A DNA stretch of 64,000 bases. Origin: an uncultured Litoreibacter sp. GTDB lineage: Bacteria; Pseudomonadota; Alphaproteobacteria; Rhodobacterales; Rhodobacteraceae. The DNA lies in contig CANLQL010000001.1 of assembly GCA_947493265.1 (NCBI GenBank), forward strand, positions 868,001-932,000, read 5' to 3'. Within the stretch, counting starts at the first letter, position 1. Each line of letters starts with the position of its first letter. Positions 5,406-16,042 of the stretch are shown here, piece by piece. The notes under the pieces were generated by a model that made no database searches, was not told the origin of the DNA, and saw only the letters and a list, made by a program, of their open reading frames with translations. The translations under genes were made by a program, and so were the position numbers.

Positions 5406-5737
5406 GGCGTTTGGCGATGACCCTATCAAGATGTGACATTTTCAGGGCCGCCGCGCTTACCAAACTCGTTGCCACCTTTCCATAGCCGCCGTTGGCGTAA
5501 CCGCAGCGAAAGGGCATTATGTCCCGCATAGCCGACCTCAGCTTGCGCTGCAGCAAATCGCTGCACTGCGGACGAAGCACCGGTTCGCTGCGTCTGCTCC
5601 AATGTCCGCTTCCGAAAATCAGCTCCGTAAAAAACGGTCGTTTGTGGTTAAACTTATGGGCACAACCCTCGCGGGAAGCTCGCATGCTCACAGTGTTGAG
5701 CAAAAAGCACTAGGCTAAGGCAACAATCACGAAGTGT
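5406..5737. repeat. Intergenic region with a degenerate dispersed-repeat copy (about 5497-5620)
   Basis: No gene is supported in these 332 bases. The segment around 5497-5620, read on the minus strand, contains GGAAGCGGACATT, then GCAGTGCAGCG, then TTTCGCTGCG. The same blocks in the same order occur on the plus strand at about 10021-10090. I take both as degenerate copies of a dispersed intergenic repeat. The function is unknown. Confidence 0.4.
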
Positions 5738-6493
5738 TCATCCTCCAGATGAGCAATAGTCCAAGGTGTAAGCTATCTCGTCAGACAATTCCGATACTTT
5801 GGTAGGGTCGTATCCGTGTCCTGCCAATAAACTTATGAATCCGGATTGTGGTAGTGATGGCTCGCCAGCTGCCGCCGCTGCCAAATCAGTAATATCTCCA
5901 GGTAATTCGGGAATTAAAAATAAATCGAGCTGCTTTGCAGCTCGGAAAAAGTCATCTTCAGTACTTCCCTCATCGACAATAAGATCAAAGTGGAAAAAAT
6001 TGTAAAGACCTTCTTCAGCGTCGCTGCTTGGCTGAATTTTAACCGTATGAAAATTTAGCGCATTTGACTTCAGTGCAAGGGCTCCGCGATCTCCTGCCAC
6101 GAAAACCGGCACAAAATTGACGTGCCTTGTCGGCGTATGTGTGTACTGCGGACTACCAGAAAAAAGAGACCGACACGGAGACACAAAGGGTACATTGTTT
6201 GCCTCTGCACTACAGTACTCGCGAGCCATTTCCTGGTACGCACTACCGCCAAGGAACACCACTTGGAGCTTGTACTGAGAAACTTGTAAACTGCGCCCAC
6301 TGCCAACAGGTGAGCAAAATAGTGATAGTCGGCCACTAACATTGCCACCAACCGAGTCTAATGAAGTTGTACTCGTCTCCCCGCGCACGATTTTTTCGCC
6401 CGCCGTAGCAGGCGACGTTCTCTCCCAGGCATATGCGGCATGTGGGCTTAAAAGAGTGAAGAACACCAATACGGCCAATTTTTCAGTCAGCAT
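5738..6493 (-). CDS. Secreted hypothetical protein, paralogue of its neighbour
   Basis: This 251-residue protein has a signal peptide ending in AYA-WE near residue 22 and no recognised domain. Its C-terminal half has the order: a strand ending in a Cys-Pro (LFCSPVG), a beta-rich middle, and DDFFRAAKQLDLFLIPELPGD. The gene directly upstream encodes a protein with the matching blocks DFWCLPIG and WEFFRQAQEFEVTIVPVALDG, so the two are diverged duplicates. The genes overlap by seven bases and form an operon. Base composition is more AT-rich than in the metabolic genes further right, consistent with accessory DNA. An exported, perhaps enzyme-inhibitor or stress protein is possible, but function is unknown. 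Confidence 0.6.
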   Translation of the reverse strand: MLTEKLAVLVFFTLLSPHAAYAWERTSPATAGEKIVRGETSTTSLDSVGGNVSGRLSLFCSPVGSGRSLQVSQYKLQVVFLGGSAYQEMAREYCSAEANNVPFVSPCRSLFSGSPQYTHTPTRHVNFVPVFVAGDRGALALKSNALNFHTVKIQPSSDAEEGLYNFFHFDLIVDEGSTEDDFFRAAKQLDLFLIPELPGDITDLAAAAAGEPSLPQSGFISLLAGHGYDPTKVSELSDEIAYTLDYCSSGG

Positions 6494-7152
6494 TCAGCTA
6501 ACGCTCCATTAAAGCCCCGGGATGACCCGTTGGCGCTGAAATAAAGAGTGATATAGTGGAGCCGCTCATCCAGCTCGGCCAGTCCCGCTCTGATCGATTC
6601 CGCCATGAGGTCATTCAAAGGATTGTTGCGATCCTCTAACATTTGAACATTTTGCTGTCGGGCAGCGCCATCCAATGCTACTGGGACAATGGTCACTTCA
6701 AATTCTTGCGCCTGTCTGAAAAACTCCCAAGTAATGCCTTTGGGAATAGTTGGAAAACTGAGCGTAGTCTTTATCCAAGTTCGATCGGTAGATGACTCGA
6801 GGTAGGAATCTATTGCAACTGTATAGACGCCATTATCGAAGAAAAGAATAACACGACTGGTGTCCTCTACGTTCTTTACCTCCGGGATAATAACTTCGAT
6901 CCAAAAATGCTTCATATTGGTTTTTCCAATAGGAAGGCACCAAAAATCCATCGTTGCATCCAGATCGCTTCTTTCTTCAGCTCGAATGAATGCATTCCCG
7001 TATTCACCTTGCGGTCCAAACTGCCAAACATCCCTTCTTGCCTCCTGTGCCCACACCGATGTGCTTACTCCTGATAGAGCAACAATCAGGGCTGCTGCAG
7101 CGAGCGCAATTCTGTCAAACGATTTCCTGGGACCACGATGCATTGTCATCAC
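6487..7152 (-). CDS. Secreted hypothetical protein, first of a paralogous pair
   Basis: The 221-residue product carries a signal peptide with a hydrophobic core (IALAAAALIVALSGV) and a likely cleavage after VWA-QE near residue 36. The mature part is predicted to be beta-rich, with a single Cys-Pro pair early on, a VILFFDNGVYTVAID strand block and a late amphipathic FFRQAQEFEVTIV block. These blocks reappear in the downstream gene. The general order (an early cysteine, a strand with FD, a W or T-containing strand, an FF helix, a late strand) is also vaguely like the C-terminal half of the lipoprotein at 13431-14648. I do not recognise a family. The start is one of two adjacent ATGs. Confidence 0.6.
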   Translation of the reverse strand: MMTMHRGPRKSFDRIALAAAALIVALSGVSTSVWAQEARRDVWQFGPQGEYGNAFIRAEERSDLDATMDFWCLPIGKTNMKHFWIEVIIPEVKNVEDTSRVILFFDNGVYTVAIDSYLESSTDRTWIKTTLSFPTIPKGITWEFFRQAQEFEVTIVPVALDGAARQQNVQMLEDRNNPLNDLMAESIRAGLAELDERLHYITLYFSANGSSRGFNGALAEC

Positions 7153-7207
7153 TCAAATCTGTTTTCAGTAGAATAGGGTCCTAACACAGAGTGAATCAAT
7201 CCCCTTC

Positions 7208-7215
7208 GACTAACG
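7208..7215. repeat. Left target-site duplication GACTAACG
   Basis: The eight bases GACTAACG abut the left inverted repeat of the insertion sequence and are repeated exactly at 9749-9756 next to the right end. Confidence 0.85.
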
Positions 7216-7236
7216 GGTAGTGGGTCAGTCTGAAAT
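7216..7236 (+). repeat. Left terminal inverted repeat of the insertion sequence
   Basis: It reads GGTAGTGGGTCAGTCTGAAA plus one T. It pairs with 9728-9748, matching 19 of 21 positions. Confidence 0.85.
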
Positions 7237-8127
7237 ATCTTTTTTCACACGCTTCTTATAGGGGCCGCGTTTCTTAGGCGCTGCATCTTCTGCTTTCTCA
7301 ACCAGTGCAACGATATCATCAACAGTCCAAGGCGACGCGACAAGGTTAGCGGCCATAGCAGGCGTGACGCGGAGCGTCTTGTGGATACGGCAGTAATTGT
7401 AGTGCATGAAGTGCATTGCAACCGCGTACGCGTGGTTCTCGGCCTTTTTCGAGAATGCGTTGGTGAGGGGTGTGAAACGGCGCATTCCCATCCGCATTGT
7501 AAGGTTCTGGCGTTCGATGTGGCTGGTGCCAACCTGTTCCAGGTCAGGCTTTCCAAAAATTGCCTCTTTCTTTGGGCCCGTGCATTCGGCCGGGGAATAC
7601 TTGCGCTCGTGGCTTTTCTGGCCTGTAGGGTCGCCGTATTGCTTGATCAACATTGCGTAGTCCACGTCGCCAGAGAAAGCGTCGGTAACCGCCTTGAGGT
7701 ATCCACCGTGCCCGTCTGTGGCCAGCTGGATATGTGTCGCCAAGCGGCCCTCCAAATCAAACATGAACTCACGTGCAGTGTTCTGCGAGCGGTCACCGAC
7801 GGTGTAGGATATCATCAGCTTGCTGTCGCGGTCCATGGCTGTCCATGTCCAGATATCGCCAGTCTCAGAAGGCGCGGATTTAGCGTCTTTCACGTTGCGC
7901 TGTTTCGCGTAGCATAAGGCCCAGATTTCATCGGTCTGCACATGGCTGGCCTCTACGTCGCGCACATTCTCGTCGTGGAACTTTTCGCAGGCCCTACCTG
8001 CATCTTCTAGCAGCCTAGTAACTGTGTTCTTTGATACATCAGCGATACGTGCAGTGGCGCGGATTGAGTTGCCTTCTACCAGAAGGTGGATGATTAGGGC
8101 GCGGGAATTTCTGTCGAGCTTTCTCAT
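7225..8127 (-). CDS. IS1-family-like DDE transposase
   Basis: The 300-residue enzyme catalyses strand transfer of the surrounding element. An N-terminal helix-turn-helix (about residues 8-45, ARIADVSKNTVTRLL) precedes the catalytic core with the likely triad D66 (QTDEIW), D138 (TDGHGGY) and E205 (HIERQNLT). The C-terminal tail is strongly basic (PKKRGPYKKRVKK). I chose the ATG giving MRKLDRNS; the alternative start 27 bases upstream would run into the internal copy of the element end. Length and motifs match alphaproteobacterial proteins annotated as IS1 family transposase. The gene is complete with no frameshift, so the element could be active. Confidence 0.9.
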   Translation of the reverse strand: MRKLDRNSRALIIHLLVEGNSIRATARIADVSKNTVTRLLEDAGRACEKFHDENVRDVEASHVQTDEIWALCYAKQRNVKDAKSAPSETGDIWTWTAMDRDSKLMISYTVGDRSQNTAREFMFDLEGRLATHIQLATDGHGGYLKAVTDAFSGDVDYAMLIKQYGDPTGQKSHERKYSPAECTGPKKEAIFGKPDLEQVGTSHIERQNLTMRMGMRRFTPLTNAFSKKAENHAYAVAMHFMHYNYCRIHKTLRVTPAMAANLVASPWTVDDIVALVEKAEDAAPKKRGPYKKRVKKDISD

Positions 8128-8138
8128 ACCCCAATATA

Positions 8139-8158
8139 AATTCAAACTGACCATTAGT
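8139..8158 (-). repeat. Decayed internal copy of the element end
   Basis: The block TTCAAACTGACC is identical to the right end of the element, but one C is missing after it and the terminal ACC is replaced (ATTAGTC instead of CATTACC). It lies just upstream of the transposase start, where the right end of a simple one-gene IS of about 940 bp would be. I read it as a former end that has lost its terminus. Confidence 0.65.
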
Positions 8159-8183
8159 CAAGATATATCGTCAAGTAAGTGCT

Positions 8184-8240
8184 TTACTATCCTTAGTTTA
8201 GGCCGTACTAAGGATAGTAAGGCGGGAACTAAGGATAGTT
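8184..8240. promoter_or_regulatory. Three ACTA-N4-TAGT dyads before the ATPase gene
   Basis: The unit ACTATCCTTAGT or its complement ACTAAGGATAGT occurs three times, at about 8186-8197, 8207-8218 and 8228-8239. Each has dyad symmetry ACTA-N4-TAGT. The first two form a perfect 14-bp inverted repeat (8184-8197 with 8207-8220). The third ends one base before the ATPase start codon and includes its AAGGA ribosome-binding site. A weaker relative, ACTAAGATAG, lies 4 bases upstream of the small basic gene at 9688-9697. This looks like an operator array. Confidence 0.65.
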
Positions 8241-9485
8241 ATGGCTAAGATGACAGAAGATGATTGGAAGGCCTTAAGATTCCACGTAACGGAACTCTTT
8301 ACCCCGTCCAGCCCGGTTTCAACCACTGAGCTTTTTGCTGGTCGGTCTAAGGAAATTGGCCGCATGGCAGACACAATTGCCGAGCGTGGACGGCACGGAA
8401 TATTGTATGGCGAGCCGGGTGTTGGCAAAACTTCACTGGCGAAGCTGTTGCAGTACTTTATCCCAACCGGACCCAAGAATGTTCAGTACATTCGGAAAGC
8501 AGTTACCAGTAATGACACCTTTACCTCCATCTGGGGTGATATTTTCAAGAAGATTAAGTTTTCCGCCATTCGAGACGGTATCAGGCAAGAGTATACAGTT
8601 GATGACCTTTACCCGAATGAAATAACTCCCACGGATGTTGTGAATGAACTGAACGACTTCGGTGAATCGACGATCCCAATTATTGTTATCGACGAGTTTC
8701 AGCAGCTCGCTGACTCAGAAGCCGCTCGCTTAATGTCTGAAACGGTTAAGTCTGTTTCGGACGAAGGACTTATTGCAACAATCGTCGTCGTGGGCGTCGG
8801 TGACAGCGTTGACGAACTGGTGCAAGGCCACGGTTCGATCATACGCTGCTCAGAAGAAGTCCTTATGCCCAGAATGACCGTTACTGAGATCAAAGAACTA
8901 CTGGAGATCCGGTCCAAACAGCTAGACATGCCGATTCACGGAGATGCCCTTTGGAAAATTATCTCTCTATCAAAGGGCCTACCCTCGTTTGCACACGCCC
9001 TTGGACGAGCTTCATTCTACACATCCATCGAAAACCGCAGAAAATCAGTCAACGAAAACGATGTTGATGCTGGGATTTTGGCTACCATCGAAAGTTCACA
9101 GTATACTCTCAAAAGTGCCTACGAAACAGCAACAAACAGCAACCATGCAAAAGCTACTTTCAAGCAACTAATTACGGCATGCGCATTGGCTAAGCCCGAT
9201 CCTAGTGGGTGGTTTACCCCAAAAGATATCGAAGAGCCGTTCTCTGGAATAATGAAGCAACGGCGCACGATTGAACACTTCAATGATAAATTGAAAGACT
9301 TCGCTTCTGAGAAAAGAGGCTGTATTCTAGATATGAAGGGTATGGATCGAAACTTTAGATTTCGGTTTGCGCAGCCTGCCATGCAACCCTTCGTGCTAAT
9401 GAAAGGAATTGAAGCAGGGCTGATTGATCAAGACGCTATGAACGCTCTTTCTTCGAAGGAGCAGGGGGAGCTTTTTCCGACCTAG
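8241..9485 (+). CDS. AAA+ ATPase, passenger of the insertion sequence
   Basis: This 414-residue protein has a Walker A motif GEPGVGKTS (about 57-65), Walker B IIVIDE (D151/E152) and downstream sensor-like segments. The beginning (LFAGRSKEIGRMADTI) is the pattern of Orc1/Cdc6-type and STAND-like ATPases, and the C-terminal third could hold a winged helix. Family knowledge allows a DNA-binding ATPase that loads or activates partners, including TnsC/MuB/IstB-like transposition regulators. Position inside the transposed unit suggests a role in target choice, element control or host interaction, but this is inference. The AAGGA ribosome-binding site lies in the third operator dyad. The 3' end overlaps the convergent small gene by 50 bases. 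Confidence 0.8.
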   Translation: MAKMTEDDWKALRFHVTELFTPSSPVSTTELFAGRSKEIGRMADTIAERGRHGILYGEPGVGKTSLAKLLQYFIPTGPKNVQYIRKAVTSNDTFTSIWGDIFKKIKFSAIRDGIRQEYTVDDLYPNEITPTDVVNELNDFGESTIPIIVIDEFQQLADSEAARLMSETVKSVSDEGLIATIVVVGVGDSVDELVQGHGSIIRCSEEVLMPRMTVTEIKELLEIRSKQLDMPIHGDALWKIISLSKGLPSFAHALGRASFYTSIENRRKSVNENDVDAGILATIESSQYTLKSAYETATNSNHAKATFKQLITACALAKPDPSGWFTPKDIEEPFSGIMKQRRTIEHFNDKLKDFASEKRGCILDMKGMDRNFRFRFAQPAMQPFVLMKGIEAGLIDQDAMNALSSKEQGELFPT

Positions 9486-9684
9486 TTGCGCCCGCTTTTG
9501 CCGCGATAGCAGATCGCTCTTTAGATGTAAGGGCTCGCGCGCGGGCTTTCCCGCCCTTCAATCCACCTTCGCGCTGGCCGGACGTGTCAGGCTCATACAC
9601 AGGTTCCTCCTCACCCGTCGCTATGTCCACAATGAACTTGGCAAGCTGGTTGGCATCACGGGGTCTTTTGGGTTTATCTGTCAT
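9436..9684 (-). CDS. Small basic KGGKARA-type protein, passenger of the insertion sequence
   Basis: The 82-residue protein is rich in Lys, Arg, Ala and Glu, beginning MTDKPKRPRD and containing ATGEEE and GGLKGGKARARALT. I recall short rhizobial and rhodobacteral proteins with the same KPKRPRDxNQLAK start and GRKGGKARA motif, sometimes annotated as histone-H1-like or RNA-binding. Its function is not established. It converges on the ATPase gene with a 50-base overlap and reads from the far end of the element, so it was carried in together with it. A degenerate ACTAAG-ATAG motif just before the start may tie its control to the ATPase gene. Confidence 0.7.
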   Translation of the reverse strand: MTDKPKRPRDANQLAKFIVDIATGEEEPVYEPDTSGQREGGLKGGKARARALTSKERSAIAAKAGATRSEKAPPAPSKKERS

Positions 9685-9727
9685 GCTACTAAGATAGGCA
9701 CTGCCTCGCGTGAGGGCAAACTATCTA

Positions 9728-9748
9728 ATTTCAAACTGACCCATTACC
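9728..9748 (-). repeat. Right terminal inverted repeat of the insertion sequence
   Basis: On the minus strand it reads GGTAATGGGTCAGTTTGAAA plus one T and matches the left end at 19 of 21 positions. Confidence 0.85.
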
Positions 9749-9756
9749 GACTAACG
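9749..9756. repeat. Right target-site duplication GACTAACG
   Basis: Exact copy of 7208-7215, immediately outside the right inverted repeat. Confidence 0.85.
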
Positions 9757-10101: not shown

Positions 10102-10344
10102 CTAGACCGACTTCGCCAACAACCTCGCGAGCAATCGGGACAACTTCAGCTCTTGCGTCCGCAGCCCGTGACTATGCGCTGGATGCTTTTCACCGGATGG
10201 AGCACCGCCTCTCGCACCATGCATCCGGCAAACGCCCCACCCTCGAACGGCAGGGGCCTTGCATCTATCACCTGACCGTTTTGAGATTGCCGTGCATCTC
10301 GGCGCGTCATGCGCGCTTTGCATGGGGTTAACGTCGGTTTTCAT
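10102..10344 (-). CDS. HGGxxPG-type small protein of integrative elements
   Basis: The product (80 residues from the ATG giving MKTDVNP) has a cysteine-containing block CxAISKRSGDRCKAPAVRGW followed by CRMHGARGGAPSG. This is the CxxHG-GxxxG signature of short proteins often annotated as HGGxxPG-domain, found in prophages and P4-like islands near terminase or primase genes. Its role is unknown; metal binding through the Cys/His residues is plausible. The start overlaps the end of the upstream gene by 17 bases; in-frame upstream ATGs would overlap it further. It is probably the last gene of the minus-strand replication operon. Confidence 0.7.
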   Translation of the reverse strand: MKTDVNPMQSAHDAPRCTAISKRSGDRCKAPAVRGWGVCRMHGARGGAPSGEKHPAHSHGLRTQELKLSRLLARLLAKSV

Positions 10345-10891
10345 CAATGGTCCCCCCATGTGCGACATCACCCACGATAGCCTGTCCACCATCATTGACC
10401 GTGACACGCTCTACGCGCACGGTTTGCTGCGCTTTGGCGCGGTGTTTTTTCAACGCATCCATTTGTGCAAGATAGGTACGGCTCAGACGGGTGACAGACC
10501 TCTCTAGGCTCTCACGCGCGGTCCAGTTGGTTAGATCAGCCATCTTCTGAGCCAAGGTCGTCATCGCGACGTGGGTTGCGCCCATTTGGATGATCAGCAT
10601 TGCCTCGACGGCATCGCGTGGCTCCAGCTCTGCATGAAGGGCCGCAATGAACGGGCGGTAGTTGGCACCTTCACGTCCAAGCGCATTCAGCGCGCTTGTG
10701 AGCAACCCGTCAGCCGCATCCTTGGTATCAACGCCAAACAGCTTGAACAAGGTGAGCGGGTCTTCATAGGCGACCTCTACAACCCCTTCTTCGTTCGTCG
10801 TAAAGGTCGGGCGGCTCTTGTGGTACTTTGCTGCCTTTGCCGGGAGTGCATCTGCAATTTCCTTGCTTGTGAACGGTCTCTTCTCTGGCAT
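10328..10891 (-). CDS. Integrative-element hypothetical protein (187 aa)
   Basis: The 187-residue protein is soluble, mostly helical and ends in a segment VRVERVTVNDGGQAIVGDV. I recall that ending (VxVxxGGQAxVGxV) from hypothetical proteins encoded beside HGGxxPG proteins in alphaproteobacterial islands and prophages. The function is unknown; the helical middle with many Ala and Leu residues and the late strand could be an oligomerisation module. It overlaps the HGGxxPG gene and follows the RepA-like ATPase gene by about 110 bases, all on the minus strand. Confidence 0.65.
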   Translation of the reverse strand: MPEKRPFTSKEIADALPAKAAKYHKSRPTFTTNEEGVVEVAYEDPLTLFKLFGVDTKDAADGLLTSALNALGREGANYRPFIAALHAELEPRDAVEAMLIIQMGATHVAMTTLAQKMADLTNWTARESLERSVTRLSRTYLAQMDALKKHRAKAQQTVRVERVTVNDGGQAIVGDVAHGGTIDENRR

Positions 10892-10935
10892 GTCTTTGCT
10901 CCGTTTCCTGCTCTGTCGAAGGTGTTTTGAGAGGC

Positions 10936-11002
10936 GTGTCAGATTGGTCAGGTTGTCAGGTTGGCGGCGTTGAACCTGACAACCTGACAGGTCTGACAGG
11001 GG
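10936..11002. repeat. CCTGACA-rich direct/inverted repeats
   Basis: Between two element genes the pentamer-like units GTCAGGTT, CCTGACAA and CCTGACAG recur at least six times in both orientations over about 60 bases. They could be iterons or protein-binding sites for the RepA-like protein encoded next to them, or a termination structure. No test was possible. Confidence 0.45.
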
Positions 11003-12004
11003 CTAGCCAATTCCACTGTCCAAAGGGACCAGATCATATTCACCGCGCCCGGTTTTGCGGATTTGGCTTTTCTCGACCATCCGTCTGAGCGTCTTGTCGG
11101 TGTTTGATGCTGATAGCCCGGTATGCCTCTGGATTTTCTGCGGTGTATGACACCCGTCCTCCAGAGCTTTGATTATCAACCGCCGTGTATCGCCAACAAA
11201 CACGCTGTCTGGGTCGCCAAGGTATTTCCAACGGCAGCGCTCCTCGTCAAACTCCACAGCATGTTGGAAGCCTTTAATGTCGCGCCCCTTGCCGTAGAGC
11301 GTCACCTCGTTCCCAGTTTCGCCAACCTTACTCGCAAGGATAACAGTCGCATCAGCAGCGCCTGTAAGCCCCGTAGAGCCTGATACCGTATCGTAGACGT
11401 CCTCAGCATCAGCTTTGCGCACGTGATGCACCACGAGGACGCCTACGCGGTGTTCTGAGGCGAGGCGATGCAGTCCCCGCAACGCTGCATAGTCCGCCTT
11501 GTAGTCGTCCTTGCCGCCTTTTGCGGGTCGAACGGTTGCCAGAGTGTCTGCGATGATCAAGCGAGGGTGCGGACACGAGATAATCCAGGCCTCAATACTG
11601 GCAAGCCCACCTTCATCTAGGCGCTGGGCTTCCACCGCAAACTCAAGCCTCGAGGGCCAGCTTGCTTCAGGTTGGATCTTGTTGAGGCGGTCCTGCAAGC
11701 GACGCTGGTTGTCTTCAAGCGCGAGGTACAACACCTCACCTTGATCACAGGACGCTCCCAGGAACTGACCACCCTCAGCAACGGCAAACGCAAGGTCCAA
11801 TGCCGCCCAGCTCTTACCGAGCTTGGGCTTGCCACAGAACAGCGTCAGACCCTCTGGAATGAGGCCTGGCGCAATCCACTGCACCGGCGGGAACTCTTTG
11901 CTCTGCAACTCTTGAGCAGAGAACAACTTAAGCTTGCTGGTATGTTGGGCCTCAGGCGCGCGGGACATCGCATCGATGCTTTCCAGCCAATGGTCATCAG
12001 GCAT
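11003..12004 (-). CDS. RepA-like AAA ATPase/helicase of an integrative element
   Basis: The 333-residue protein is a RecA-fold ATPase of the RepA/AAA_25 type. Walker A is GKPKLGKS (about 58-65), Walker B ends in LIIAD (D153), and VLVVHHVRKA supplies the family's HH-type motif after it. The last 70 residues look like a winged helix (RRLIIKALEDG, TPQKIQRHTGLS). In plasmids and P4-like islands such proteins act as hexameric replicative helicases. The start codon overlaps the stop of the upstream gene (TAATG), so translation is coupled. Between this gene and the next one downstream (10892-11002) are stretches of repeated CCTGAC. Confidence 0.85.
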   Translation of the reverse strand: MPDDHWLESIDAMSRAPEAQHTSKLKLFSAQELQSKEFPPVQWIAPGLIPEGLTLFCGKPKLGKSWAALDLAFAVAEGGQFLGASCDQGEVLYLALEDNQRRLQDRLNKIQPEASWPSRLEFAVEAQRLDEGGLASIEAWIISCPHPRLIIADTLATVRPAKGGKDDYKADYAALRGLHRLASEHRVGVLVVHHVRKADAEDVYDTVSGSTGLTGAADATVILASKVGETGNEVTLYGKGRDIKGFQHAVEFDEERCRWKYLGDPDSVFVGDTRRLIIKALEDGCHTPQKIQRHTGLSASNTDKTLRRMVEKSQIRKTGRGEYDLVPLDSGIG

Positions 12005-12378
12005 TATGCGGCCCTCCCGACAAACTGGTTGTTTGCGTCAACGCGCGCCAAGAAGGCGGCGCGATCATCGCAAGGCAAACTGGACCACAACGTCACCAAG
12101 AGGCGTTTGCGTGCCGTCACCGCGAAGGCACGATGCCCTAAGACCCGTAAGATTGCCCAGAGATAGACCTCCAACTCGCGGGGGCTTGCGCAATCCGCCC
12201 AGAACTTTGCATCTGATCTTACGTCCGCGAACGACGCATAGGGACCGTCGGTTTCCATATCTTCAAGTGCTGCCGCCAATATCTGTGCAGCATCATCGGG
12301 ATAGGTGTTTGCTATCGCTTCGCAAAGCGATCTCGCAGCAAATTTGCGTGCGGGACCGAGGAGAGTCAGATCACTCAT
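12004..12378 (-). CDS. Integrative-element hypothetical protein (124 aa)
   Basis: The likely start is the ATG giving MSDLTLLG, which has a GGAGGGG ribosome-binding site; an upstream start would overlap the preceding small ORF completely. The protein (about 124 residues) is helical, with Trp and Cys residues and no recognised domain. Its stop codon overlaps the start of the RepA-like gene. The position between a tiny ORF and the helicase gene is typical of auxiliary replication or copy-control proteins, but nothing in the sequence proves that. Confidence 0.65.
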   Translation of the reverse strand: MSDLTLLGPARKFAARSLCEAIANTYPDDAAQILAAALEDMETDGPYASFADVRSDAKFWADCASPRELEVYLWAILRVLGHRAFAVTARKRLLVTLWSSLPCDDRAAFLARVDANNQFVGRAA

Positions 12379-12518
12379 TTGACCCCTCCATAGTAAAGCG
12401 CTGCAATCAGCTCGGCACGTTGTGTGCTCAAACCGTGTTGCCAACGGATGCGCCGCTCCTGGCGGGTTTTAAGGGAAGTTTTGTCTACCTGCTCGGCAAT
12501 CAATATCTGTTCGGTCAT
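12375..12518 (-). CDS. Tiny ORF of the replication operon (47 aa)
   Basis: This short frame begins MTEQILIAEQVDKTS and ends in LYYGGVK. Its stop overlaps the next start codon as ATGA, which supports real translation in the operon. Most residues are helix-forming, with an Arg-rich middle (TRQERRIRW). No family is recognised. The candidate plus-strand small RNA would start opposite its first codons. Confidence 0.5.
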   Translation of the reverse strand: MTEQILIAEQVDKTSLKTRQERRIRWQHGLSTQRAELIAALYYGGVK

Positions 12519-12619
12519 GTTATTAGTCCAACCTTGAATAGTTGGATCGAACGCCGTAGGTTCAATGTGCTGAAGAACCTAAGCCCCTGCTCGATCCAAT
12601 GGATTGTGCGGGGGTTTTT
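12516..12619 (+). ncRNA. Candidate small RNA with three hairpins and a terminator
   Basis: On the plus strand, in the gap between two minus-strand genes, three successive stems are visible: TCCAAC/GTTGGA (12527-12546), TAGGTTC/GAACCTA (12557-12581) and a long stem whose base is CCCCTGC/GCGGGGG (12584-12614), followed by TTTTT. The last is a standard rho-independent terminator with no plus-strand protein gene before it. A promoter-like TTGTCT-N17-TATCTG (12481-12509) would start transcription near 12516, opposite the first codons of the 47-residue ORF. An antisense or plasmid-type copy-control RNA is one option. The alternative is a bidirectional terminator behind alpA. Confidence 0.45.
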
Positions 12620-12620
12620 G

Positions 12621-12797
12621 TTAGGCGGTAGCGCGTTGCGCGAGCCAATCCACAATTGATGATTCTGACCATGCGACGGCGCGGCGGCCAATACGCTTCG
12701 GCCTGGGAAATTCACCCCGATCCATCATCGCATACAAAGTTGAGCGGCTAAGACCTGTCGCAGCTTCAACATCTGCCCGTCGATAGTGTTTTTCCAT
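12621..12797 (-). CDS. AlpA-family excisionase-like regulator
   Basis: The 58-residue protein (begins MEKHYRRADVEAATGLS) is a complete MerR-like winged-helix of the AlpA family: helix-turn-helix with TGLSRSTLYAMM, the wing FPRPKRIGRRAVAWSES and the final helix VDWLAQR. AlpA proteins activate excision and integrase genes of P4-like elements or control their replication genes. It is the first gene upstream of the minus-strand replication operon. A nested inverted repeat lies directly before its start codon and includes its ribosome-binding site, suggesting self-control. Confidence 0.85.
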   Translation of the reverse strand: MEKHYRRADVEAATGLSRSTLYAMMDRGEFPRPKRIGRRAVAWSESSIVDWLAQRATA

Positions 12798-12799
12798 CG

Positions 12800-12859
12800 T
12801 TCAATATTCCTATTCTTAATTCGCCCGTTGACGAATTCTTTATTGCTGCGAATATTGAA
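12800..12859. promoter_or_regulatory. Nested inverted repeat upstream of alpA
   Basis: A perfect 10-bp inverted repeat TTCAATATTC (12800-12809) and GAATATTGAA (12850-12859) surrounds a second one, AATTCG (12818-12823) and CGAATT (12832-12837). The near arm ends two bases before the alpA start codon. It is a candidate operator for AlpA or another element regulator. Confidence 0.5.
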
Positions 12860-13430
12860 GACGGTTTGGGAACGCTAATTCAGACCGATTTCGGTTGCCT
12901 CAGCTTGTCCAAGAGCTGGGGCAACCAACCCAGAAAATCGCATTTGTTCCTAGGGTGATTCGAATCTGACGAGCATTCGCCGGAGCGTCAATCTGGATAT
13001 CCTGTGGATTAGGCTAAGCATCTAAAATATCTGGAGTAATTTTGTCTATTTCCTATCTATCACAGACTTTTTCAATGCTGAACGAATAGGAATCTATTCA
13101 AATTCAATTGAAAAACTGAGAGCGTTCCGGGGTCAATTGGTCAGGCAGGTATGCACTTTGCTACCGGTAGTTCGCAGAATTTGATGGATAGCCTGATCAA
13201 ATTGACGGCTCGCAAAAGAAATTTGCCAAAGGCTCTTCGAAGATTGTCGACTTTGCTGCAGCAATTATTTGCTCGAAGCTCGCAAATCTTCAGAGCATTA
13301 GTTAGCTAGACTCTGGTAACCGTTTCACTAGACTGTCTATTCCAAATGGGTGGGTAAAATTAATTACATTTGTCCGTCATATTCGAAGGTTTGATCAGTT
13401 CAAGCCGGTAAAGAGTATAGGAGTTTTTAA
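12860..13430. other. AT-rich intergenic region of the integrative element
   Basis: About 570 bases without a convincing gene on either strand. An imperfect inverted repeat (GCTCT-tcg-AAGATT at 13232-13245 against AATCTT-c-AGAGC at 13285-13296) is visible. The region separates replication genes from the cargo gene and may hold the element's origin or promoter signals. Confidence 0.4.
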
Positions 13431-14648
13431 GTGAACATTTTTCAAGTGGTGCGATTTTCGGCGGTGGTGCTTTTCTCACTTGTTGTAGCAGGTTGCAGGT
13501 TCGAAGATGACCAATACATTTTTGGTTCTGATGAATTTGTTCCTATTCCGGACGAGCTTCTAATTGTCGACAACGGTAGCAAGGTAGTATCGGATGAACT
13601 ATCAGGTGGAACTCTGCGCAGATTTTCGAAAAACCAGTTTGTCTTCACTGGTCCTGCCGGGGAAACAGACGGAAGTGGGTTTTCTTTTGCAAAGCTTCTT
13701 GGCAGTGATGATTTCTGGATAGCACAATGGGGTGTCGTTGATGAAAATGGGAAACAAAAGGGCAAAATATTTTTTGTCTTAGCTAGTTTCAATGATGAAT
13801 CAATGATTGTTAGAGCTCCGTCATTAGAAGCAACTCCGCGCCTTGATAAAAATTTCCCGGTCTTAGAAAACCTGTCAGATTTACAGAGGTATTTTAATGC
13901 CGTTCTTGATCTTCCAGATGAAGATTTTATCGAGATACCTTTTTTCTTCTTTGATGTAACGAAGCCTGATCCAGATGGCTCTCGACTCGCGTCGCTAAAG
14001 GAGAGAATCTCGAAGATCAAAGAAGAAAACAGAGCGGCTGCTGAAGCTCGAAAGCAAAGAAAAGAAGAGGCTGAACTTGCGGAGCGGATCGCAAACGATG
14101 GAAAGCAATATGGCCGGTGGCTCCACCGAATTGAAACGGATATTGTCACTGATGAAACGCAACAGGTTCTATTTGGACTTCCAAACGGAATAAAAGATTA
14201 CCAAGCTGCCAAATTTATTGAGGTTAGCTGCCGCTATGGCGTCGAAAAACATCCCAAGTTTGATGTCGCCGTTCATTGGGGCGAACCGCTTCAAAAGATA
14301 TCTGTTACGGAGGAGAACATTGACCTAACGCGGGTTATTATGCGGTTTGATCAAGATCTCGCAAAGACAACTGGATGGGCAAGAAGTAAGGACAAACAAA
14401 AAACGTATACTGTCGGTGACGTGGTCACTAAGTACCCGAATGCCAAATTAACGTATTTGAAGAATTTGAGTAAGAAGTCAGGTGAGGATCTGGTGGTGAT
14501 TTCGGAATCTTTGCGTGGTGCTCTACTAAAATCAGATCAGGCAATCTTTCGTGGCTTCACAGAAAAAACAGGCGAAGATTTGACGTTCGTTTTCGATACT
14601 ACTGAGTTTGGAAACGCTCTGGAGAACTTCCCGTCGCAATGTAGGTAA
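13431..14648 (+). CDS. Unknown lipoprotein in the cargo position of the element
   Basis: The 405-residue protein has a lipoprotein signal peptide with lipobox LVVAGC (Cys22). A beta-rich N-terminal domain (about 25-180) is followed by a charged coiled coil (about 185-222, many Lys/Glu/Arg/Ala) and a C-terminal domain with a GRW start, a VSC cysteine, a VIMRFD strand, GWARSKD, a basic segment, a late FVFDTTEF strand and a final Cys. That order resembles, weakly, TagO/VasI-type secreted domains. The GTG start has a GGAG-containing upstream stretch (ATAGGAG). The gene is AT-rich compared with the metabolic genes, reads opposite to the neighbouring element genes and lies between the alpA block and the integrase, the place where P4-like elements carry cargo such as defence genes. 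No function is known. Confidence 0.75.
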   Translation: MNIFQVVRFSAVVLFSLVVAGCRFEDDQYIFGSDEFVPIPDELLIVDNGSKVVSDELSGGTLRRFSKNQFVFTGPAGETDGSGFSFAKLLGSDDFWIAQWGVVDENGKQKGKIFFVLASFNDESMIVRAPSLEATPRLDKNFPVLENLSDLQRYFNAVLDLPDEDFIEIPFFFFDVTKPDPDGSRLASLKERISKIKEENRAAAEARKQRKEEAELAERIANDGKQYGRWLHRIETDIVTDETQQVLFGLPNGIKDYQAAKFIEVSCRYGVEKHPKFDVAVHWGEPLQKISVTEENIDLTRVIMRFDQDLAKTTGWARSKDKQKTYTVGDVVTKYPNAKLTYLKNLSKKSGEDLVVISESLRGALLKSDQAIFRGFTEKTGEDLTFVFDTTEFGNALENFPSQCR

Positions 14649-14685
14649 TTTGGTGGTGAAATCTTTTCTAACGATACGATGCCCG

Positions 14686-15909
14686 CTACGAACTTAGGCT
14701 TGAATGCCCAGACCTCAATGGCAAGATTTTAGCCTCATCATCGCTTAGATAACTTGCCCACCGTTGCATAAGGACTTTTCGTTTTTCGAAGTAGTCAGAT
14801 CTCGCGTATGCTGCTTCCGCCTTGTCTTTTACCACGTGGGCAAGCGCGGCCTCAGAGATATCACGCGGGCTGTTAGTCTGCTCTTGCGCCCACGTCTTGA
14901 AAGAGGTGCGGAACCCGTGAACGTGGACGTCATAGCCAAGCTGTTTGACCAGCTTTAGCAAAGTCATATCGGATAGCGGTCTACCTGCGATTGCGCCTGG
15001 AAATGCAAAACCTTCACCAGTTCCCAGCTCTTTCGCTTTCCGCAATATCTCCAAAGCACGGCTAGACAGAGGAACACGATGTTCCTTCCCATTCTTCATC
15101 CGGTCTGCTGGCCGGGTCCAGATAGCCGCCTCTAAGTTGAACTCTGACCAGTCTGCCAGCCTTATCTCTCCAGAACGAGACGCCGTTAGAATAACCAACT
15201 CTAATGCCAGCTTGGTGAATTCCCCGGCACTGGAGGCTTGGATCACCTTGATGCACTCTCCAACTTCACTATAGGGAAGGGCCTTGCGGTTCTTCGTTTT
15301 GCTAACTTCGCGAGGCAACGCGAGCGCATCCCGAGTCGCAGGGTTGTTCGCACACATGCCCTCTGCAATGCCCCACTTGAAAACAAAAGAGACACGGTAG
15401 GTCAGCTTTTTGGCGACACCGGGCGCTTTTTCCCGTGCCGCAAGTATTGCCTTACGAATATCGGAGCTTGTCACTTCGGGAAGTTGAACATCTCCGAAAC
15501 GTGAGAACATATAGGTCTCGAGCGATGCGAGGAACGCGGAGCGGTCCTTTGGGTTCTTCCAAGTATGTGCCAGCTCTGCATGTGTTGCGATTGCAGCATC
15601 TTTGAAGGTCATCACCCTCTTGGCTTTTCGTTTTTCTGCCAACGGGTCGCCCCCTGAAAGCGCAAAACGCTTGTTCTCCTCGGCGACGTGCCTTGCCGCA
15701 GCAAGTGAAACGAACTGGAAGCTGCCTAGGCCAATCTCTCGTCTCTTGCCTCGAATGGTTAAACGTTGAACCCAGAACTTGCCGCCAGCGGGTTTTACTA
15801 AGAGGAACAGGCCGGTTCCACGGCCATCGTGATATTTGCCCGCTTGGCTCATGTTCTTCAAGAAGGCAGCTGTTAGGCTCTTGTTTCTCAGAGCGAGGTC
15901 TTCCAACAT
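14686..15909 (-). CDS. P4-like tyrosine integrase
   Basis: The 407-residue site-specific recombinase has the N-terminal arm-binding DUF4102-like domain (about 10-95), a core-binding SAM-like domain (about 100-190) and the catalytic domain. Catalytic residues are R245 (TASRSGEIR), probably K275, H331 and R334 (HGFR), H358 and the nucleophile Y368 (AAYARSDY). I chose the ATG giving MLEDLALR because GGAGGA lies 7 bases upstream; the longer frame would run through the hairpin at 15925-15949. It catalyses integration and excision of the element. A complete set of catalytic residues suggests activity. It marks the right boundary of the element. Confidence 0.92.
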   Translation of the reverse strand: MLEDLALRNKSLTAAFLKNMSQAGKYHDGRGTGLFLLVKPAGGKFWVQRLTIRGKRREIGLGSFQFVSLAAARHVAEENKRFALSGGDPLAEKRKAKRVMTFKDAAIATHAELAHTWKNPKDRSAFLASLETYMFSRFGDVQLPEVTSSDIRKAILAAREKAPGVAKKLTYRVSFVFKWGIAEGMCANNPATRDALALPREVSKTKNRKALPYSEVGECIKVIQASSAGEFTKLALELVILTASRSGEIRLADWSEFNLEAAIWTRPADRMKNGKEHRVPLSSRALEILRKAKELGTGEGFAFPGAIAGRPLSDMTLLKLVKQLGYDVHVHGFRTSFKTWAQEQTNSPRDISEAALAHVVKDKAEAAYARSDYFEKRKVLMQRWASYLSDDEAKILPLRSGHSSLSS

Positions 15910-15910
15910 G

Positions 15911-16042
15911 GTTGTTCCTCCAATTGTTCCCCCAAAAAGTGGGGGAACATGCCGGAACCTACAAGACCTAACCGGCAAGAAATTGTGAAAATATGATTTT
16001 TTTGCAGAAACTTATAGTTCTTTCTCGGAACTCTCCGGAACA
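15911..16042. promoter_or_regulatory. GTTCC/GGAAC repeat cluster and perfect hairpin beside the integrase
   Basis: A perfect 10-bp inverted repeat TGTTCCCCCA / TGGGGGAACA with a five-base loop occupies 15925-15949. Further GTTCC or GGAAC units occur at about 15914, 15953, 16027 and 16037. Repeats of this kind beside a P4-like integrase gene are candidates for arm-type integrase sites or an integrase operator. The attachment core itself could not be identified. Confidence 0.5.

Follow-up and report, generated by a model that had tools for sequence, protein, structure and literature searches.

The locus analysed here raises the question of whether an AAA+ ATPase gene found inside an insertion sequence (IS) helps to move that element or is carried by it. 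The gene lies in a 64,000-nucleotide stretch of a contig from an uncultured Litoreibacter sp. (CANLQL010000001.1, positions 868,001 to 932,000; hereafter the window). An earlier note on this DNA described an element of IS1 type, larger than a plain IS, in which a transposase is accompanied by two passengers, the ATPase and a basic protein of 82 residues. Our analysis bore out such an element and places it in a family of IS1-like transposons that would combine a fixed frame with a slot for an exchangeable load, the ATPase being cargo. We put the probability of this reading at roughly 0.87; the figure covers the frame, the slot and the cargo status, and a defence role of the ATPase lies outside it. 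What the sequences themselves establish is the ends with their 8-bp duplications, a constant pair of frame genes, cargo that varies, and mosaics between elements.

The element in the window and its independent insertions

The window element measures 2533 bp and, together with its flanking duplications, comprises the following features.

7208-7215, no strand: left copy of the target-site duplication, GACTAACG, exact over 8 bp
7216-7236, plus strand: left inverted repeat, matching the right end at 19 of 21 positions
7225-8154, minus strand: IS1-like DDE transposase, a frame gene of 309 codons; start likely at 8127 (MRKLD...)
8139-8152, plus strand: copy, inside the element, of the end's inner portion, immediately upstream of the transposase
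8186-8239, no strand: operator-like dyad at the left border of the cargo module, with ACTAAGGATAGT present three times and in two orientations
8241-9485, plus strand: AAA+ ATPase with an Orc1/Cdc6-like predicted fold, almost certainly cargo; absent from 44 of the 48 elements found through their transposase
9436-9684, minus strand: small basic KGG-motif protein of 82 residues, a frame gene that overlaps the cargo at its C-terminal end
9728-9748, minus strand: right inverted repeat, matching the left end at 19 of 21 positions
9749-9756, no strand: right copy of the target-site duplication, GACTAACG, exact over 8 bp

The 21-bp inverted repeats, the duplication on both sides and the three genes between the ends had all been reported in the earlier note, and we confirmed each of them; the internal copy at 8139-8152 and the dyad at 8186-8239 had escaped it. 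By arithmetic, fixed ends would show an 8/8 duplication by chance with a probability of 4^-8, or about 1.5e-5. Its own genome has one copy of the element, the second match there being a 54-base self-match of the dyad.

The whole three-gene element was also found in a different genus of the same family of bacteria (locus L004, genome G040), at 70% DNA identity from end to end and flanked by its own exact 8-bp duplication, CCGGCAAC. Because of this independent insertion, we conclude that the three genes travel as a unit and that the outer repeats are real ends. Recurrence of the ATPase and the 82-residue gene between the same ends is what the earlier note had proposed to look for, and its claim that the ATPase moved with the element holds. 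Near-identical copies elsewhere point to recent transposition: two copies in genome G140 (L156 and L157) are 99.97% identical and have different duplications, and three copies in genome G591 (L175-L177) are 99% identical with three different duplications, the transposase frame being broken in two of them.

Relatives were collected through both the ATPase and the transposase. An ATPase-profile scan of genome contigs gave at least 584 pattern matches, at least 148 of which were confirmed, and the best 80 loci were kept. Transposase, ATPase and small protein were all found in 17 of these; 62 showed neither a transposase match nor paired ends flanking the ATPase in the sequence stretch examined; and the remaining locus (L059), cut by a contig end, contained the small protein and the right end. 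Transposase searches were positive in 17 of 390 genomes (E-value 1e-30), in 18 of 394 with L151 as the query, and in 30 of 385 across the class (E-value 1e-60), these three samples sharing some genomes, including the window's own. Among plasmids, 22 records had a transposase match; six were examined and four held delimited elements (L169-L172). Altogether 62 elements were delimited, 48 through the transposase (the window's included) and 14 through the ATPase only, with L179, which equals L073 in coordinates, length and flanks, counted once. A plain relative on a Deinococcus plasmid (L174; 1178 bp, with an 8-bp duplication and the transposase as its sole annotated gene) stands outside the 62. 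The sole phage record that matched the transposase was Brevundimonas phage vB_BpoS-Gurke (ON529850.1, 174791-175594), at 32% identity and in a region without an annotated gene.

The flanking duplications allowed the delimited ends to be tested. Scored with a matrix derived from 54 ends, 200 kb of random sequence nowhere exceeded 10 bits. Among the 32 elements picked by end score alone, the duplication matched at 8/8 positions in 30, at 7/8 in one and at 3/8 in one. These comprise a first set with exact duplications in 11 of 11 and the class sample, where 21 of 32 transposase loci had both ends and 19 of the 21 had an exact 8-bp duplication, the others being L214 (7/8) and L193 (3/8). For the other 30 elements, where 25 had 8/8, three 7/8 and two none, the duplication had been scored in the pick, which makes them weaker evidence.

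Frame genes, slots and cargo exchange

All 62 elements, which range from 2182 to 4224 bp, contain the IS1-like transposase, and 61 contain the small protein. The window transposase matches the Pfam model DDE_Tnp_IS1 at 33.7 bits (gathering cut-off 24.1). Its match to the NCBIfam IS1 equivalog (E-value 2.5e-18, 66.7 bits) falls below the cut-off of 100, so we regard it as a distant branch of the IS1 family. Residues D75, D147 and E214 are invariant in 16 aligned relatives and are candidates for the DDE triad. Since most of the aligned relatives have a methionine at MRKL/MNKL, 8127 is probably the true start. The internal site at 8139-8152 has its best match, 12-14 of 14 positions, at the same place in 8 of 21 elements (the window's, L004, L073, L151 and L156-L159); the other 13 match at 9-12 of 14 positions and the place is not constant. 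The site is therefore a trait of one branch, where it may act as an autoregulatory site bound by the transposase.

The description of the 82-residue protein as a passenger did not survive the survey, as its presence in 61 of the 62 elements marks it as a constant part of the frame. It is encoded on the transposase strand in 59 elements and reversed in two (L205 and L206); the 62nd element, L097, has a 49-residue frame that by eye resembles the first half of the protein. The protein received no name in Pfam, NCBIfam or PADLOC, and a PHROG family of unknown function matched its KGG part only. Its structural model, with three helices, is too low in confidence to interpret (pLDDT 70, pTM 0.32). 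In a related element (L200, 4850-5935), a 361-residue cargo protein starts with the same KGG motif (hidden Markov model E-value 7e-11), which suggests that the motif may be a shared module that also occurs outside the frame.

The main slot lies between the two frame genes. In the 48 elements found through the transposase, it contains PD-lambda-2-like genes (16 elements), RmrA-like XRE-peptidases (6), SocA/Panacea antitoxins (4), the AAA+ ATPase (4: the window's, L004, L073 and L196), a nameless family of 252-312 residues (5) and other genes (10). Relatives of defence or toxin-antitoxin genes (PD-lambda-2-like, RmrA-like and Panacea) thus fill the slot in 26 of 48. PADLOC was used to check 4 of the 16 PD-lambda-2-like elements (L151, L153, L171 and L193) and 5 of the 6 RmrA-like ones (L172, L194, L208, L210 and L215), the others being assigned by similarity to those checked. 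Matches were strong, with E-values down to 1.8e-51 for PD-lambda-2_B, 3e-191 for RmrA and 1e-97 for RmrT, which accompanies the RmrA-like gene in L172 and L208. Further cargo matched HigB, PemK/MazF, MazE, a BglII endonuclease with an MT-A70 methylase, SocA_Panacea, Abi_2 and GNAT. Some copies are broken (L176 and L177). In the account of Vassallo et al. 2022 (PMC9519451), PD-lambda-2 is made up of a gene for a HigB-like toxin, one for an Xre-peptidase and one more gene. This gene order is present in L153, L156-L158, L193 and L214, and HigB was not detected in the other 10 of the 16 PD-lambda-2-like elements.

Some members have a second slot between the left end and the transposase. It holds PemK/MazF with MazE (L030), an NYN nuclease (L093, and L016 by similarity), a Clp-like protease (L085), an IrrE-type peptidase (L153), GNAT (L190), Panacea (L212) and also unnamed genes. 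In L154 (5627-9335), it holds a BglII-type endonuclease (Pfam E-value 1.4e-48) and an MT-A70 methylase (4e-29); this element, with its exact 8-bp duplication, is a mobile restriction-modification unit of 3.7 kb. Two further loads stood out. The family of 252-312 residues occupies the main slot of L152, L192, L207, L211 and L212 and is a candidate unknown system; its two tested members (L152 and L211) had no Pfam match above the cut-off and no PADLOC match. A 421-residue cargo protein of L190 (4580-5845) had its match in phrog_5990 (E-value 9.8e-83), a phage family without a known function, and none in Pfam or PADLOC.

Similarity borders, mosaics and the transposase tree agree on an exchange of cargo between frames. 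The frame closest to that of the window belongs to L151, whose transposase is 91% alike and whose cargo is a PD-lambda-2-like gene with an Abi-like gene. The left arms of the two elements are 84-85% alike and the right arms 80-84%, and nothing aligns between them; the borders fall at 8162-8185 and 9512-9545, depending on settings, and other element pairs break off at similar places. Within one genome, L196, with the ATPase, and L200, with a different gene, are 91% alike over the left 1140 bp. Conversely, the transposases of L151 and L159 are 70% alike and their XRE-peptidase cargo 95.5%, while L158 and L159 have transposases 94% alike and XRE genes 37% alike. L159 is a mosaic that tracks L158 to about position 900 and L151 beyond. 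The ATPases of L073 and the window are 30% alike, with transposases at 66%. In a tree of 37 transposases, the window (ATPase) is sister to L151 (PD-lambda-2; support 100/100) and L004 (ATPase) to L175 (PD-lambda-2; 100/98), and the ATPase label requires seven changes, at least four of them on well-supported branches. Non-synonymous divergence (dN) is well below synonymous divergence (dS) wherever both could be estimated, as in the cargo XRE of L151 and L159 (0.027 vs 1.0) and the transposases of the window and L151 (0.049 vs 0.89).

The following mechanism would account for these elements. The frame consists of inverted ends of about 20 bp and two genes, that of the DDE transposase next to the left end and that of the small KGG protein close to the right one. 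Between the two genes is the main cargo slot, and some members have the second slot as well. The transposase would cut at both ends with an 8-bp stagger and, in the window's branch at least, probably represses itself through the internal site, and the small protein probably assists, regulates or restrains transposition. Cargo would be swapped, most simply, by homologous recombination in the two shared frame arms when elements meet in one cell. As the load is often a toxin-antitoxin or phage defence module, it would favour retention of the element; the ATPase would be dispensable for transposition of the window element.

Role of the ATPase and rival explanations

The window ATPase matches the general AAA domains AAA_16 and AAA_22, and it has weak matches to the Orc1/Cdc6 model, far below its cut-off, and to TniB (E-value 0.011, below the cut-off). 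GxxGVGK and a DE pair, which we take to be the Walker B motif, are invariant in 29 ATPase relatives. An AlphaFold2 model based on a 29-row alignment has a mean pLDDT of 88.6. Its top Foldseek match is archaeal Orc1/Cdc6 (2qby; E-value 2.2e-10, TM score 0.47-0.52), followed by ORC, RuvB, RFC and others; MuB, TnsC and IstB were not among the best 50 of 1836 matches (E-value up to 10). Upstream of the gene, the 12-bp dyad ACTATCCTTAGT / ACTAAGGATAGT is present three times, and L004 has a similar dyad whose pairing is kept through a matching change on both arms. Of 34 ATPase genes, eight (the window's, L004, L014, L018, L028, L033, L038 and L097) have a best upstream dyad that beats every one of 15 shuffles, against about two expected by chance, which is at most a hint that the dyad may serve self-regulation. 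ATPase relatives also occur in viral contigs (at least 38 loci), and a phage protein family of unknown function, phrog_6841, matches the ATPase with an E-value of 1.5e-38.

The earlier note had left open whether the ATPase is cargo or a transposition regulator. It is almost certainly cargo and not a partner of the MuB, TnsC or IstB type, because the elements closest by transposase have this slot filled with other genes. The note had also held that ATPase genes without the flanking ends would speak against a passenger; such genes make up 62 of the best 80 relatives, harmlessly, as they fit an independently existing ATPase that was loaded as cargo. A single-gene defence or addiction function is the likeliest guess for this cargo, given the company it keeps in the slot, its relatives in viral contigs and its match to phrog_6841.

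Three other explanations were weighed. That the genes stand together by chance, as a plain IS beside a chromosomal ATPase with an accidental match of the outer repeats, is scarcely credible. The internal end-like copy upstream of the transposase could be the right end of a shorter IS, but it retains the inner part of the end without the terminal bases, the same three genes and ends have a different duplication in another genome, and 62 elements share the frame. A plain IS next to a chromosomal gene is refuted by the independent insertions. It is improbable, to a lesser degree, that the ATPase regulates transposition together with the transposase in the branches that have it. Its AAA+ fold and the weak TniB match would suit such a role, as would its fixed place beside the transposase in 17 of 41 elements of the first set, which was enriched by ATPase searching, and the clustering of the ATPase label on the tree. 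Yet the gene is replaced by others in the closest transposase relatives and is missing from 44 of the 48 transposase-found elements, stand-alone homologues are common (62 of the best 80), and the best 50 structural matches are led by Orc1/Cdc6, ORC and RuvB.

A third explanation agrees that the ATPase is cargo and takes it for a selfish or neutral DNA-binding AAA+ protein instead of a defence or addiction gene. We consider this a serious contender, although we lean somewhat away from it. It is consistent with the phrog_6841 match and with searches for a known anti-phage system, which found no match to the window ATPase beyond the P-loop region, and for a shared partner, which found none (both detailed below). 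Against it stand the defence and toxin-antitoxin relatives in the same slot of 26 of 48 elements, the constraint on the ATPase (dN of 0.22 between the window and L004, dS not estimable) and the operator-like dyad before the gene. A wider proposal, that the elements form an undescribed miniature class of defence-shuttling transposons in which slot genes without a name, including the solitary ATPase, would be defence systems not seen before and the KGG protein would partner the transposase as a dedicated factor, is more tentative still.

Several observations weigh against the family of cargo carriers that we favour, or against parts of it. Regarding the element itself, an empty site was not found, as the left flank (5700-7215) matched its own genome only among 21 genomes of the genus. 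In the class sample, 11 of 32 loci lacked both ends as a pair and were not counted among the 62: one end was present in L195, L198, L199, L202, L203 and L213 and none in L216-L220, the contigs of L198, L202 and L203 stopping 0.6-1.6 kb beyond the transposase. Earlier sets had likewise placed L017, L061, L066, L079, L126, L162-L165, L167, L168, L173, L183 and L185-L187 outside the 62. Two of these, L017 and L126, had two end hits and were excluded by hand, the former as a transposase remnant and the latter as a stretch of at least 5.9 kb with parts of two copies; their flanks share 6/8 and 2-3/8 positions, and counting them gives exact duplications in 30 of 34. A plasmid search with the 82-residue protein returned nothing at 1e-5 although the plasmid copy L171 exists, so searches with this small protein are insensitive. 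Regarding the cargo, three of the 48 main slots (L189, L205 and L206) had no match to the cargo families distinguished here, and many cargo genes are of no known function. On the transposase tree, moreover, cargo labels cluster, with 13 changes against a shuffle mean of 18.9 and a possible minimum of seven; 0 of 200 shuffles were as low for all labels and 3 of 500 for the ATPase label alone. Exchange is therefore frequent but not free.

Regarding the ATPase, PADLOC at E-values up to 1 gave eight matches confined to the P-loop region, seven covering 19-28 residues and AriA covering 54. Pfam searches of 118 genes neighbouring the 62 stand-alone ATPases gave no shared partner: 177 families were matched, and FAD-binding and oxidoreductase domains headed the best 25, none with more than four members. 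Two of these 25 families are IS1595 transposase domains, found in 2 of the 118 genes. On the Salinibacter plasmid pSR31 (L010, 3249-6218), a 33% identical relative of the ATPase is divergent from a different annotated transposase of 467 residues; this locus could be another type of element loaded with the same ATPase.

Elsewhere in the window, the region adjoining the element (10102-15978) looks like a degraded island, with an ATPase/helicase-like open reading frame (11003-12004) and a tyrosine-recombinase-like one (14686-15978), both named by eye. ARAGORN found no tRNA in the window.

Comparison with known elements

IS1 family members are defined by ends that start with GG and a duplication of about 8-9 bp, and they typically carry only a transposase within about 0.7-1.2 kb. 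The window element has a transposase of this type, the GG ends and the 8-bp duplication, and it departs from the small, transposase-only format. Its family differs in being longer (2.2-4.2 kb), in having a second gene that is constant and in carrying cargo that can be exchanged. The IS1 family in ISfinder includes a subgroup with members of up to about 4.6 kb, so parts of our family may already be catalogued there; a literature search on ISMhu11, the name of that subgroup, returned no papers. Compared with Tn7-like transposons, the family is much smaller and has an IS1-type transposase, no required TnsC-like partner and one or two cargo modules. Tn7, Mu and IS21-type elements have a constant AAA+ partner, whereas in 44 of 48 elements here the slot contains a different gene or nothing recognised, and the ATPase fold did not recover TnsC, MuB or IstB among the best 50 matches. 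What the family shares with Tn7-like transposons is varied defence and toxin-antitoxin cargo (PMC8649781).

The closest concept is the transporter IS (tIS), an IS derivative with passenger genes inside, as defined in PMC9330008 and PMC7986276. The elements described here have passenger genes within an IS and differ from the tIS in the conserved accessory gene and in the exchange of cargo, with many defence or toxin-antitoxin loads. Known systems in the slots of relatives include PD-lambda-2, RmrAT, the Panacea toxin-antitoxin (PMC8832971), MazEF and restriction-modification; the window's cargo is none of these. Passenger-carrying IS derivatives and larger transposons with defence cargo are already known. 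A search for papers on elements of IS1 type that carry passenger genes, defence systems or toxin-antitoxin modules, judged by title and the start of the abstract and with most subscription literature and ISfinder outside it, gave no paper that fits among those listed. As far as this search shows, what is apparently new is a family of IS1 type that combines a second constant gene with a slot refilled repeatedly by defence and toxin-antitoxin modules.

The family suggests that defence and toxin-antitoxin modules may have a general vehicle in an element barely larger than an IS, and comparison of close relatives makes the swaps visible. The slot is sharply delimited by the ends, the duplication and the two frame genes, so it is well suited to the search for new defence genes, and the spread of such modules between genomes becomes directly testable. 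The window's ATPase, a widespread solitary 'ATP-binding protein', is thereby assigned to the cargo class.

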